From the NCBI GenBank assembly GCA_030667985.1, contig DAOUUU010000007.1, positions 1-39,848 of the forward strand: a stretch of 39,848 bases of DNA. Direction: 5' to 3'. The position numbers and the translations under genes were made by a program. Within the stretch, counting starts at the first letter, position 1. The number at the start of each line of letters is the position of its first letter. This document shows, in pieces, positions 33,625 through 39,540 of this stretch. This stretch comes from Candidatus Krumholzibacteriota bacterium (GTDB taxonomy: Bacteria > Krumholzibacteriota > Krumholzibacteriia > Krumholzibacteriales > Krumholzibacteriaceae). The notes under the pieces were generated by a model. The model did no database searches and was not told the origin of the DNA. It saw only the letters and a list, made by a program, of their open reading frames with translations.

Positions 33625-34749
33625 TCATTCGCCGAGATATGACAACAGTTTCAAGGCCTCCATAAGATCGCGCCTTGTCACGATACCGACGACTGCGCCT
33701 TCTTCATCCAGGACGGGCAGTCTGCCATAACCTCTTTTCATGATCAGATCCACGACCTTCCCGGCAGGATCGAATGGGCGGAGCGCGAAACGCATCATAT
33801 CCCTGTCCATCACCTCGTCGACCGTCACGTTCGACCAGTGTTCCCTGTCGATATGTTTTACGTGCTTGAGCGACACGACGCCGATGACCCTTCCCCCCTC
33901 TATGACTGGATAGGAATCGTAGTGATGCTTGAGGAAATAATCATCGACGAGTGACTGCAGGGTCGTCGAAGCATCGGCTGTTACGACATTCGTCCTCATA
34001 ACATCCGCGACTCGAAGGTGCCCTATCGCCTCCCTGAAAGCGACGTTCGCGTAGCTCGTCTGCGCCGCCTGATACAGGAAAAATCCAATAAAGACCATCC
34101 AGATCCCGCCGATGAAATTGCCGGCGAAGAAATTGATGAATCCGAGGACGATCAGCAGGACGGCGAAACCCTTTCCCACCCTGCTAGCGATCCTCGTGGC
34201 CCTTGTGATATTACCTGTCTTGTACCATATGACCGACCTGAGTATTCTGCCGCCGTCCAATGGAAAACCGGGAACCATATTAAACACGAGTACGATAATA
34301 TTGATCCTCATCAGCGACCTCAGAAGAGCAAAGGCCACAGTGCTTTCGCGAAATAGAAGCGAGATCCCATAGAAGGCGAGGGCAATCAGGACGGTCATTG
34401 CCGGACCGGCGGCAGCGATCTTGAGCTCGCTCAGCGGCTTGTCCACATCCCGCCCCATCTGGGCCACACCACCGAACATGAAGAGCGTGATCTTCTTGAT
34501 CGGCACGCCGTTCCTGGTGGCGACGATCGAATGACTGAACTCGTGCATCAGAATGGAGAGAAAGAGCAGAATGGCCGTCATGAAACCGAGGATCCAGAGC
34601 TTGAGCGGATCAAAGGCACCTGGATGGATCGAGGGATAATACCTGGTCGAAAAGGTCCATGTCATGAGCGCAAGCACGAACAACCAGCTCATATTGACAT
34701 AGACCGGTATGCCCCACAGCTTGAAGAGCCGGATATTCGTATTGAGCAT
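33625..34749 (-). CDS. Site-2 protease-type M50 metalloprotease with two CBS domains
   Basis: A 374-residue membrane protease. The zinc motif is His69-Glu70-x-x-His73 in the membrane, and Asp165 in 'NMVPGFPLDGGRIL' supplies the third ligand. Four to six hydrophobic segments surround these. The C-terminal half (about 247-372) holds two CBS domains ('VADVMRTNVVTADASTTLQ', 'VDEVMDRDMMRFALRP'), which bind adenosine nucleotides and may gate activity. Site-2 proteases cleave transmembrane regulators or remnant signal peptides. It lies 38 bases after panD on the same strand, perhaps in one operon. The ribosome site before the ATG at 34749 is modest. Confidence 0.9.
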   Translation of the reverse strand: MLNTNIRLFKLWGIPVYVNMSWLFVLALMTWTFSTRYYPSIHPGAFDPLKLWILGFMTAILLFLSILMHEFSHSIVATRNGVPIKKITLFMFGGVAQMGRDVDKPLSELKIAAAGPAMTVLIALAFYGISLLFRESTVAFALLRSLMRINIIVLVFNMVPGFPLDGGRILRSVIWYKTGNITRATRIASRVGKGFAVLLIVLGFINFFAGNFIGGIWMVFIGFFLYQAAQTSYANVAFREAIGHLRVADVMRTNVVTADASTTLQSLVDDYFLKHHYDSYPVIEGGRVIGVVSLKHVKHIDREHWSNVTVDEVMDRDMMRFALRPFDPAGKVVDLIMKRGYGRLPVLDEEGAVVGIVTRRDLMEALKLLSYLGE

Positions 34750-34787: not shown

Positions 34788-35141
34788 CTAGAAGCCGTTC
34801 TTGTAGCGGACAAAGTGATTGCCGCCGTCGACTTCGGCTAGGAGGGGGCTGATCTCGGACGAGATCCAGGTGAAGGCCATGATATCGATCTCGTCCCCTT
34901 CGCTGATGAGATGGGCGGCTGCGCCGTTCATACCGATGACCCCGCTGCCCCGCTCGCCTTTGATCACGTAGGTCTCCAGGCGCTGGCCGTTCGTCCGATC
35001 GACTATAACGACACTCTCGTTCTCGGCCAGATTGGTCTTATCGATCAGGTCCTGATCTATCGTTATACTGCCTACGTACCTCAGATCCGCCTGTGTCACG
35101 GTCGCCTTGAGAATCATCGATTTGAGCATCATCCGCTTCAT
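34788..35141 (-). CDS. panD: PanD-family aspartate 1-decarboxylase with unusual Lys9 and His11 replacements
   Basis: A 117-residue pyruvoyl enzyme precursor of the PanD family, which makes beta-alanine for pantothenate. The self-cleavage site Gly24-Ser25 ('RYVGSITID') is intact, as are Arg54, Thr57, Tyr58 and Asn72 in E. coli numbering. The N-terminal strand reads 'KSMILKATVT' where normal PanD has 'KSKIHRATVT': Lys9 is Met (AAG to ATG) and His11 is Leu (CAC to CTC), each a single A-to-T change. Lys9 helps bind the substrate carboxylate in PanD, so normal aspartate decarboxylation may be impaired. It lies 99 bases after the ligase-PanD fusion, which keeps Lys and His at these places. An upstream ribosome site is weak. 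Confidence 0.82.
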   Translation of the reverse strand: MKRMMLKSMILKATVTQADLRYVGSITIDQDLIDKTNLAENESVVIVDRTNGQRLETYVIKGERGSGVIGMNGAAAHLISEGDEIDIMAFTWISSEISPLLAEVDGGNHFVRYKNGF

Positions 35142-35240: not shown

Positions 35241-36743
35241 TCAGATAATCTCGCCGGCGCTCTCGGTCAGGTAGCGTACGAACCTGTTCCGCTCGTCCAC
35301 GAGTATATTCTCAAAGCTCTTTTCCGAGCCGTCCGACCAGGCAAAAGCCATGATACTCACCTCGTCGCCCGCGCAAATATGCCTCGATGCCGCGCCGCAA
35401 GCTGTGATCTCGCCGCTTTCCCTTTCCCCCTTCACGGCGAAGGTCTCGACCCTCGCCCCGTTAGTGTTGTCGACGATGAGCACCTTTTCCCCATCCGAGA
35501 TATTTGTCAGCTCGAGGAGTTTTTCGTCCACGACCAGACAATCCATCTCCTCCGGTTTCTCCCCGGTGATCCTGGCCTTGTGGATCTTGGATTTAACGAC
35601 CAGGCGATCCTCCGTACCGGATCCGGCGGAGGGGGCTCTTCCATCATGAGCGGGCGGTTTTTCGTCCATCGGCCTGAATGACCGGCCCTCGATACGTTCG
35701 AGAAGAGGGAATCCCCTGCCGCATGAGCACTTGCGGTCTGATTGGATGACGAGATCCCCCGTCCGGTACCTGATAAAAGGCGCGTATCGATTCATGAGGT
35801 CGGTGACGACCAGCTCGCCTACCTCTCCCGGTTTCACCGGTTCATAGTCCTCGCCCAGGACCTCGGCGTATATGAGGTCCGAAAAGAGGTGAAGCCCGGA
35901 ATGTTCGGGGCATTCATGCGCCACACAGTCGAATTCCGTAGTGCTGTAGCGATCAAATACTGGACAACCGAAGAACCGCTCGATCGTCTCGCGCTGCTCG
36001 AGCGAAAGCGTCTCGCCTCTCGTGATGACGGCGGTGGGTGCTATTCCTCCCAATCCCTCTTTCGTGCAGAAACGGCAAAAGAGTAGGAGAGAGGACGGAT
36101 ACCCGACGATGACGGCCGGGCCGTATCTCTTTAGCCTCTTCGCGTAGCGGCGCATTAAATCGTCCGACATATCCAACGTCGAAAGGCAGATAACGTTGTT
36201 GAAGTAATTCCTCAGGCCTTCCAGAAGGCGCTCTTTGAAGAAACGGGCAGGCGGATGCTCCCAGAGAATAGCCTGCCGGTCCCCCACATCGATACCGGCC
36301 CACCGCAAGCTTCTGAGCGTATTGGCCCGCCTCGCCGGTCCCGAAGCCACATCTCCGAAGAAGTAGAGCGCCTCTCCGGTCCTGCCGCTCGTTCTATAAG
36401 GAAAGCCTCTCCGCGTCGGATCGGTCGTGATTATGCGATTTCCCGCCTCCCGTATCAAAGCTTTTGTTAGAAGTGGTATGCTGCGAAAGTCATCCGGATT
36501 CGATATACCGTCCGGCATGATTCCGCGCGCCTTGAAAAGTTCAGAATAGTAGGGTACGTATTTCGCGGCCGTCACGAGAAGATCTAGGAGCCTGTGCCAC
36601 TGGAGTTCCTCGAGATCCTCGTTGGGGAGCCACTGATTCTGCTCGAACTCCTCCAGCATCGGAAGCAGCTCGTCTCCCCGAAGCCCCCGGTAGATCGGGT
36701 AGACGACATTCCTTACGATCGGAGGATGCAGCGGAGGAACCAT
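35241..36743 (-). CDS. PaaK/CapK-type AMP-ligase fused to a PanD-like domain with Cys at the cleavage position
   Basis: A 500-residue protein. Residues 1-358 form a phenylacetate-CoA-ligase/CapK-type adenylation body: P-loop 'YRTSGRTGEA' (116-125), 'DRYSTTEFDC' (264-273), 'RYRTGDL' (325-331) and 'CSCGRGFPLLERIEGR'. The usual mobile C-terminal subdomain is absent; after a flexible linker (359-378) comes a PanD-like domain (379-492). There Lys386, His388, Arg431 and Thr434 match PanD Lys9, His11, Arg54 and Thr57, but Ser25 is Cys402, Gly24 is Asp401, Tyr58 is Phe435 and Asn72 is Cys449. So it cannot mature as a normal decarboxylase. The start chosen is ATG 36743 (AAGGGA upstream); a TTG at 36776 lacks a ribosome site. 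Confidence 0.85.
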   Translation of the reverse strand: MVPPLHPPIVRNVVYPIYRGLRGDELLPMLEEFEQNQWLPNEDLEELQWHRLLDLLVTAAKYVPYYSELFKARGIMPDGISNPDDFRSIPLLTKALIREAGNRIITTDPTRRGFPYRTSGRTGEALYFFGDVASGPARRANTLRSLRWAGIDVGDRQAILWEHPPARFFKERLLEGLRNYFNNVICLSTLDMSDDLMRRYAKRLKRYGPAVIVGYPSSLLLFCRFCTKEGLGGIAPTAVITRGETLSLEQRETIERFFGCPVFDRYSTTEFDCVAHECPEHSGLHLFSDLIYAEVLGEDYEPVKPGEVGELVVTDLMNRYAPFIRYRTGDLVIQSDRKCSCGRGFPLLERIEGRSFRPMDEKPPAHDGRAPSAGSGTEDRLVVKSKIHKARITGEKPEEMDCLVVDEKLLELTNISDGEKVLIVDNTNGARVETFAVKGERESGEITACGAASRHICAGDEVSIMAFAWSDGSEKSFENILVDERNRFVRYLTESAGEII

Positions 36744-36782
36744 AGACTGAAAATCCCTTCGGACAGGCCAAATCAATATCGT

Positions 36783-36895: not shown

Positions 36896-37891
36896 TCATT
36901 CCCGCCGCTGGCAGATCCCTACAACGAAATCGTCATCGACACCACCGGCAGAGAGCATCTCGTCCTCCGCCTCGAAACAGGTCCGCAGCAGCTGCTTCGT
37001 CTCCTCATCGTCCCTCATGAAATTATGCGCGATATCCTTGAAGAGGAGCTGGAGAACATTTCCTCCGAATCCCCGGACATCGGCGAAGCGCATCATCCGT
37101 TCGATGAGCGGTAGTATCCTACTCGATTCCTTCGCCTCTGTCGAGTCGTAGAGCATCATACCGAGCCGCCCGGGGCGATGAACACGCCTCTTTACCGTGC
37201 CGCTCTTCCACCTGACCCTGTAACGCTCGGGAAGGCGGGCGAGCAGACCGTTCACGGCATCGAGCTGATCGTCTGTCCATTGAAAACGTGAGGGCCCGAC
37301 GAATTCGTTGAAGACGAACCACCCGTCCGGCTTGAGGGCACCGATTATCCTCTCGATGGCCGATTCCAGCGGGGAGAAATGATGGAGCGACTGCCTGACC
37401 ATAACCATATCGTAAGCCTCATGCGGCATTTCGACCGAGAACACATCGCCCACGGCATAATCTACAATATTTCCATGATCTGCGACAGCAGCCCTCTCGC
37501 GCGCTTGCTCTATCCGGGAGTGCGACAGATCATACGCGTCAATCGATTCGAAAAATCCTTTGGAGGCGAGCTCGAGCTCGTTGTGTCCGGTACCGCATCC
37601 GAGGGCGAGCCCTTTGAGTTTTTTCCCCGCTCCGATGTGCTGGCGGTGGAAATATGTAAAATAATCGGTGTTCACGTCTCCGGTCATCATTAGGTTCCAG
37701 CGCGCTCTGACTTCTGGTATCTCCCACCAGTGTCTCTCCGAACATTCGGTATGTCCCCACGGCTTATCGGGACGGCCGCGAAGGATTCTCTCGAAGATAT
37801 CCCTTGTCCGGCCCTGCCTGATCTTCTCGTTGAGCGCCGAAATATCATGGATATTGAAGAGATTGTCGAACACGGTGATAGAACCCCGCAC
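36896..37891 (-). CDS. SAM-dependent class I methyltransferase
   Basis: A 331-residue protein with a Rossmann-type methyltransferase core. 'LKGLALGCGTGHNELELA' is motif I, 'IDAYDLSHSRIEQARE' is motif II with the acidic ribose-binding Asp, and 'YDMVMVRQSLHHFSPLE' and 'LKPDGWFVFNEFVG' follow. A novel-looking N-terminal domain (about 1-85; 'GRPDKPWGHTECSERHWWEI') and a C-terminal helical part flank it. The substrate is unknown. The start is GTG at 37891, one base after the stop of the DUF3147 gene, so translation is coupled. It ends about 150 bases before the ligase-PanD gene begins. Confidence 0.85.
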   Translation of the reverse strand: MRGSITVFDNLFNIHDISALNEKIRQGRTRDIFERILRGRPDKPWGHTECSERHWWEIPEVRARWNLMMTGDVNTDYFTYFHRQHIGAGKKLKGLALGCGTGHNELELASKGFFESIDAYDLSHSRIEQARERAAVADHGNIVDYAVGDVFSVEMPHEAYDMVMVRQSLHHFSPLESAIERIIGALKPDGWFVFNEFVGPSRFQWTDDQLDAVNGLLARLPERYRVRWKSGTVKRRVHRPGRLGMMLYDSTEAKESSRILPLIERMMRFADVRGFGGNVLQLLFKDIAHNFMRDDEETKQLLRTCFEAEDEMLSAGGVDDDFVVGICQRRE

Positions 37892-38388: not shown

Positions 38389-39540
38389 CTAGTTATCTTT
38401 ATATGTTATATTAATTATATCCAAGCACATGTATGTAATCTGAACTGTACGTTTTGCCGGTGAGAGAATATTTACTTCAACAAGCTTTTCCAAGTCAGCC
38501 TTGGCTGTGGGGAAAGAAACATCATACTTTTTTGTGACATGCGGGATACGTATCACTGGAGAAACAAACAATTCATCAACGATAGCCCCTAATCTATAGC
38601 TGCCGCCAATCTCTTTTACTTGGTCTTTAAATCTATTCCAGAGTCCAAGAAGGGCATCGCATCGTTTCTCAGTGTCTTTTGCTTGATGGATTACTCCTAT
38701 TAGACAAAATTCGATCCAGGTTTCCCAATCTCCCTTTGCACTAACATTAAACAGATTTTCCATGTATGCATCTTTATTATTGTCAAAATATGCGCTCATA
38801 TATAACCATTGATTCGATAATCCGCACCATTCAGATATCATTATTGCCAATAACAATCTGCCGACTCTACCGTTTCCATCTCTAAAGGGATGGATAACCT
38901 CAAATTGATAATGGACTAGAAATGCATTTACTAAAAGATCGTACTTGTTGCCTTCATGCAAGTATTTCTCAAATGAATCCAGACATTCAGCCAAACAATC
39001 TGGTGGAGGCGGAACAAAATGAGCTGGTCTTCCAATCTGATTCTGTAATCTACGAAAAGACCCCGGATCCTTCTCGGCACCCCTTACTCCATCCATTAGT
39101 ATTCGATGAAGTTCTCTAATTAATCTTAACGATAATGGCAATTTCTCATGAGAATAATACCTCGATCTTAGTGCTACTCCATAATTGAACACTTCCCTGT
39201 AGGCATTTATTGGATCCGATTCCGAACTAGGATATTTCGGATCAATTTCAAATATCAATTGCTTCTCGGGTTCAGTAATCGTACCTTCCAATCTAGAAGA
39301 TTTCTGGGCTTCACGATTCTGAAGAGGTCGAATTAGAAGTTGGTGATTTGGCAAATGTTTTGCAGTTCCATCCAAATTCCCCAAAGCCGTCCTTGCCTCA
39401 ACGAGGAGCGGCCATAGTCTTTCCGGCCAACACCATTCCGGTGGAAGACTATCTGGAACAAAGGCATGCGTCACACCTGGGACTCCACTTATTGATTCCA
39501 AGCGACCTGTACTTTTATCTGTGAATTTTGAGATGTCCAT
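38389..39540 (-). CDS. Fic-family protein AMPylase with N-terminal inhibitory motif
   Basis: A 383-residue Fic protein. The active-site motif His217-Pro-Phe-Arg-Asp-Gly-Asn-Gly-Arg (217-228) is complete, so transfer of AMP or a related group from a nucleotide to a protein hydroxyl is expected. The class II inhibitory helix motif Ser81-x-x-x-Glu85-Gly86 is present upstream, which keeps such enzymes inactive until relieved. The C-terminal part (about 310-383) looks like a winged helix ('VTKKYDVSFPTAKADLEKLV'), as in DNA-linked Fic proteins. The gene is clearly more AT-rich than its neighbours and is flanked by hairpin-rich DNA, suggesting horizontal transfer. Targets are unknown; no antitoxin gene is adjacent. 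Confidence 0.9.
   Translation of the reverse strand: MDISKFTDKSTGRLESISGVPGVTHAFVPDSLPPEWCWPERLWPLLVEARTALGNLDGTAKHLPNHQLLIRPLQNREAQKSSRLEGTITEPEKQLIFEIDPKYPSSESDPINAYREVFNYGVALRSRYYSHEKLPLSLRLIRELHRILMDGVRGAEKDPGSFRRLQNQIGRPAHFVPPPPDCLAECLDSFEKYLHEGNKYDLLVNAFLVHYQFEVIHPFRDGNGRVGRLLLAIMISEWCGLSNQWLYMSAYFDNNKDAYMENLFNVSAKGDWETWIEFCLIGVIHQAKDTEKRCDALLGLWNRFKDQVKEIGGSYRLGAIVDELFVSPVIRIPHVTKKYDVSFPTAKADLEKLVEVNILSPAKRTVQITYMCLDIINITYKDN

Follow-up and report, generated by a model that had tools for sequence, protein, structure and literature searches.

Why would a bacterium encode two PanD-like proteins side by side, one of them joined to an adenylating ligase and neither of them carrying a complete active site? 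PanD is a textbook homotetramer with all catalytic residues in one chain, and is the target of pyrazinoic acid. The locus that raises this question lies in a stretch of 39,848 nt (hereafter the window; positions 1 to 39,848 of contig DAOUUU010000007.1, assembly GCA_030667985.1) from a Candidatus Krumholzibacteriota bacterium, whose 2.5-Mb assembly is 93.5% complete. Those relatives that carry a name are MAGs of Candidatus Krumholzibacteriota/Krumholzibacteriia. Coordinates of the fused gene, the stand-alone gene, their codons and the peptidase gene that comes next all refer to the minus strand.

The fused gene and its stand-alone neighbour

The fused gene (35241..36743) encodes a decayed PaaK/CapK-type ligase body, a linker and a PanD-like domain. 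Its stop codon is at 35241-35243, and the reading frame offers an ATG at 36743 (500 aa) and a TTG at 36776 (511 aa), of which the ATG is backed by the N-termini of homologs. An earlier note on this DNA referred to Lys386, His388 and Cys402, which are K397, H399 and C413 of the 511-residue numbering minus 11. Residues 47-366 of the protein match PaaK-type ligases (PDB 4r1l, E 1.3e-29), and the NCBIfam relatives of the ligase body (35679..36743) are the DVU_1553-type, FlxY and PaaK families. The C-terminal domain (35244..35606) is recognized by Pfam as Asp_decarbox (PF02261; residues 392-498, E 1.3e-24, 86.7 bits, cut-off 25) and stays below the curated panD model TIGR00223 (68.8 bits, cut-off 106). 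In the AlphaFold model, the ligase body extends to residue ∼363 and is followed by a disordered linker (35607..35678; pLDDT <50 at 366-391) and a PanD fold at 391-503. The model has no C-terminal subdomain; the linker, which sits where relatives carry an AMP-binding C-terminal subdomain of ∼70–75 aa, runs directly into PanD. The fusion that the earlier note had read from the sequence is thus borne out by Pfam, the PDB match and AlphaFold, and its recurrence across two families of the order indicates that it did not arise by chance.

A separate panD next door, which the earlier note had also brought up, is indeed present. It lies 99 bp downstream of the fused gene on the same strand (34788..35141) and encodes a stand-alone PanD of 117 aa (hereafter the small PanD) that exceeds the TIGR00223 cut-off of 106 with 125.1 bits. 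Beyond this pair, the window's genome contains no further PF02261 match. Across the order (families f1 and f2), the pair, or part of it at contig ends, occurs in all but two of 25 genomes, of which one is 61% complete and the other fragmented. The two genes are usually adjacent on the same strand, with a distance of ∼1.1 kb in one locus (L049). A canonical PanD was detected in none of the 25 genomes, and the other families of the class have one ordinary PanD or none. In 54 genomes sampled from three other phyla, a search for fused or paired PanDs returned only single, short PanD ORFs. The next gene in the window (33625..34749) encodes an M50 site-2-type peptidase with two CBS domains; its cluster (c3) is found in 19 loci, and it follows the small PanD in most relatives. 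One genome (G008) has a second fused ligase–PanD gene (L040:5965-7716), with deacetylase-cluster genes nearby and no adjoining small PanD.

Active-site residues of the two paralogs

A PanD active site forms where adjacent subunits meet (PMC6969166, PMC4410942). In PanD complexes, one subunit contributes Lys9 and Arg54, in trans, and the other the pyruvoyl group at position 25, Thr57 and Tyr58 (PMC3314653). We tabulated these positions in 22 fused domains, 22 small proteins and 43 canonical PanDs, a set from which six non-canonical rows had been left out for both the residue table and the tree. Among the canonical PanDs, Lys9, Tyr22, Gly24, Ser25, Arg54, Thr57, Tyr58 and Asn72 are present in 43/43 and His11 in 42/43 (one Gln). 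All 22 fused domains keep Lys9, His11 and Arg54, and 19 keep Thr57; none has Tyr22, Gly24, Tyr58 or Asn72, and only two have Ser25. The Gly24 position is Asp in all fused proteins. Conversely, Tyr22, Gly24, Ser25, Arg54, Thr57, Tyr58 and Asn72 are invariant in the small proteins (22/22), and Lys9 and His11 are present in none. Their Lys9 position is Met in 22/22 (35115..35117 in the window) and their His11 position Leu in 20 and Met in two (35109..35111), while Ser25 (35067..35069), the pyruvoyl precursor within the motif YVG-S, is found in every one. Hence, each residue lost from either partner is retained by the other. The partition follows the line between trans and cis contributions for those residues that published crystal structures assign to a subunit. 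We found no such assignment for His11 and Asn72 in the open literature, and no mutant data for Lys9 or His11 in open-access literature.

The fused domain in the window is typical in this respect. It retains the equivalents of Lys9 (35586..35588), His11 (35580..35582), Arg54 (35451..35453) and Thr57, with Lys9 (PMC3314653) and Arg54 (PMC3314653, PMC6969166) predicted to be lent in trans. Ser25 is replaced by Cys (35538..35540), Tyr58 by Phe and Asn72 by Cys, and Tyr22 and Gly24 are also changed, in agreement with the kept and lost residues that the earlier note had listed. Its Lys386 and His388 correspond to Lys9 and His11 and proved invariant. Its Cys402, for which it had considered a role as acyl carrier or acceptor, did not: the position holds Cys in 18, Ser in two and Gly in two of the 22 fused proteins, which speaks against such a role. 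A better reason for the invariance of the Lys and the His would be that Lys9, together with its neighbour His11, is lent to the active site of the adjacent subunit.

In the tree, the canonical, the fused and the small PanDs each group in a single clade, which fits a duplication of panD. We also observed covariation between Met11 of the small and Ser72 of the fused proteins, a weak, post hoc signal from few sequences (rank 49 of 5520).

Decay of the ligase part

Between ligase body and PanD domain, 21 of 23 homologs carry a normal AMP-binding C-subdomain with the catalytic-Lys motif (SPAGK/TPAGK). It is absent only from the window protein and from L034, so that the earlier note's suggestion of a PanD domain taking the place of this subdomain does not hold: in the full-length homologs PanD is an additional domain that lies behind it. 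The intact homologs are ∼560–600 aa long. In the AlphaFold model of one of them (L036), the C-subdomain spans ∼365-445 and PanD 461-572, and a Foldseek search with the full-length model returned BT_0428 and PaaK2 (4r1m, 2y4o) as best matches.

The two proteins without the subdomain have also diverged in the rest of the ligase. Of 85 ligase columns that are invariant in the other 18 sequences, 12 are changed in the window protein, and in L034 the count is 17 of 85 otherwise invariant columns; in leave-one-out controls, at most 5 of 90 invariant columns differed. Their branch lengths are 0.81 (window protein) and 1.87 (L034), with a median of 0.18. The altered sites in the window protein include adenylate-binding motifs: its glycine-rich loop reads YRTSGRTGEALYF versus SSTGGSTGEPLYF in relatives, and YSTTEF is found where relatives have YGS[RN]EF. 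None of the 28 invariant columns of the PanD domain is changed in either protein. That these columns stay constant while the ligase columns decay argues for a function of the PanD half in its own right. We therefore read the missing C-subdomain, judging by these substitution patterns, as a secondary deletion in decaying ligases, and the window copy is probably a dead ligase that has been retained for its PanD half. An assembly error is an unlikely source of the missing subdomain, as two separate MAGs share both the loss and altered ATP-motif residues. An AU test comparing one with two subdomain-loss events gave p = 0.39.

In the sampled homologs from outside the Krumholzibacteriota, the match stops at residue ∼456, before the PanD region. 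Their genes mostly adjoin glycosyltransferases, and a Dechloromonas homolog (L082) sits in an XrtA/PEP-CTERM exopolysaccharide locus (TIGR03088, TIGR03108, TIGR04063). Phylogenetic profiling has tied a CapK protein (NE2015) to such systems (PMC1569441). The ligases of these loci resemble the fused proteins in their ligase body, in the C-subdomain of full-length relatives and in the neighbouring GT4 glycosyltransferases, to which family f1 adds a polysaccharide deacetylase; they differ in that the sampled homologs have no PanD region and the window copy no C-subdomain. The deacetylase gene lies directly upstream of the fused gene in most f1 relatives. We did not find it in the genome of L034 (75% complete), and the window's genome (G000) has only a 41%-identical homolog, located elsewhere. 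Since family f2 keeps a full ligase without a deacetylase neighbour, the link between deacetylase and ligase is only suggestive.

A candidate decarboxylase with a shared active site

We propose that the fused and the small protein, both descended from a duplicated panD, form an aspartate 1-decarboxylase that is pyruvoyl-dependent, obligately hetero-oligomeric and built around a shared active site; to this reading we assign a probability of roughly 0.78. Assembly, catalysis and substrate of the pair are what we infer here from the sequence patterns described above. After the duplication, the active site would have been divided, each copy losing the half that the other retained, and one copy would have been joined to a ligase of the polysaccharide-locus kind. 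The small subunit would cleave itself between Gly24 and Ser25 to generate the pyruvoyl group and supply Thr57, Tyr58 and Asn72; the fused subunit would supply Lys9, His11 and Arg54, so that aspartate could be bound at the site of the small subunit, with decarboxylation proceeding by the chemistry known from PanD. If the two kinds of subunit alternate around the ring, every second interface would be live, namely where a small meets a fused subunit in this orientation. At the dead interfaces the pocket may be filled and hydrophobic, in that Met9 and Leu11 of the small subunit would pack against Cys25, Phe58, Cys72 and Val75 of the fused one. The mixed assembly alone would thus be functional, and neither homomer. 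In most relatives, this polypeptide also has a PaaK/CapK-type adenylating ligase, of the type seen in exopolysaccharide loci, that is still intact; in the window's genome the ligase has lost its mobile subdomain and is degenerating, on a protein probably retained for its PanD half.

Several observations count against this model. Arg54 is invariant in the small PanD as well, where the hetero-oligomer would not need it for catalysis, and the second fused copy of G008 has no small gene next to it. The retained Arg54 would be in keeping with a small PanD that works as a lone homo-oligomer, perhaps acting on another substrate through a pocket lined by Met9 and Leu11, with the fused domain as a ligand-binding or regulatory domain of the ligase. 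In line with this, the small PanD has an entire processing half and scores above the cut-off of the panD model, and its invariant Met9 looks selected rather than drifting. However, a lone small PanD leaves unexplained that the fused domain has retained the residues that a PanD subunit contributes in trans and has lost those it uses in cis, and the constancy of that domain in proteins with a decaying ligase means that the ligase is not the reason for its retention; we therefore regard this alternative as unlikely. Even less probable, in our view, is that the fused domain serves only for oligomerization, as a catalytically idle tag by which the ligase attaches to a PanD ring. The PanD fold does form rings, and the fused domain has kept the fold while acquiring hydrophobic changes at the lost sites, yet Lys9, His11 and Arg54 are invariant pocket residues for which docking has no need, and Lys9 and His11 are the very ones missing from the small partner. 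Finally, the earlier note's view of a PanD domain that stands in for the C-subdomain and provides the ligase with an amino-acid pocket or Cys thioester carrier matches the true architecture of the window protein and the predominance of Cys at the Ser25 position (18/22), but we give it almost no credence, as both domains coexist in nearly all homologs, four of the 22 have Ser or Gly at that position and the window ligase body is itself decaying.

The proposed shared-site enzyme has much in common with known PanDs (TIGR00223, PF02261; structures from E. coli, M. tuberculosis and H. pylori), namely the fold, the Gly24-Ser25 site of the small subunit and an interface active site with Lys9 and Arg54 in trans; it departs from these homotetramers in that its catalytic residues are spread over two paralogs, one of which carries the ligase fusion. 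We found no description of a heteromeric or ligase-fused PanD in open-access full text, a scope outside which most subscription papers fall. The closest functional parallel that we found is the deoxyhypusine synthase of trypanosomatids (Afanador et al. 2018, as described in PMC10820115), a two-paralog heterotetramer with complementation at a shared active site. In one paralog, the catalytic Lys is replaced by Leu, and each heterodimer interface has one live and one dead site (PMC10820115). The pair differs from ours in enzyme and chemistry, in being eukaryotic and in having no ligase fusion. Trypanosomatid AdoMetDC with its prozyme is likewise a pyruvoyl decarboxylase that depends on a catalytically dead paralog, but there the prozyme relieves autoinhibition allosterically and lends no catalytic residues (PMC10820115). 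If our reading is correct, the pair would allow a clean test of how a duplicated homomer turns into an obligate heteromer when its copies undergo complementary losses: live and dead sites would share one ring, and the fused ligase would be seen in the midst of decay next to a PanD half that is retained. It would also mean that annotating panD as present from the small gene alone overlooks an essential partner.

The product is most likely beta-alanine for PanC-dependent synthesis of pantothenate. Both panB and panC are present in the window's genome (C89:1883-2653 and C89:1003-1827) and in nearly all relatives, which makes pantothenate synthesis the natural use of beta-alanine. Many Krumholzibacteriota of families f3, f5 and f6 (among G025-G079) have panB and panC and no detected PanD; beta-alanine is thus apparently obtainable by other means, so that the pair may not be strictly needed for it. 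More tentatively, and with considerable doubt, the mixed ring of relatives with an intact ligase might make beta-alanine, or another beta-amine, that the ligase on the same chain activates for attachment to amino sugars which the neighbouring deacetylase has freed. The pair would then serve both CoA and a surface polysaccharide, and the polysaccharide branch would have been lost in the window's lineage.

Two further genes were noted in the window. Upstream of the fused gene, a SAM-dependent methyltransferase is encoded at 36896-37891; its cluster occurs in four compared loci and does not always adjoin the pair. A Fic/DOC-family protein with a Fic_N domain, unrelated to the PanD pair, is encoded at 38389-39540.
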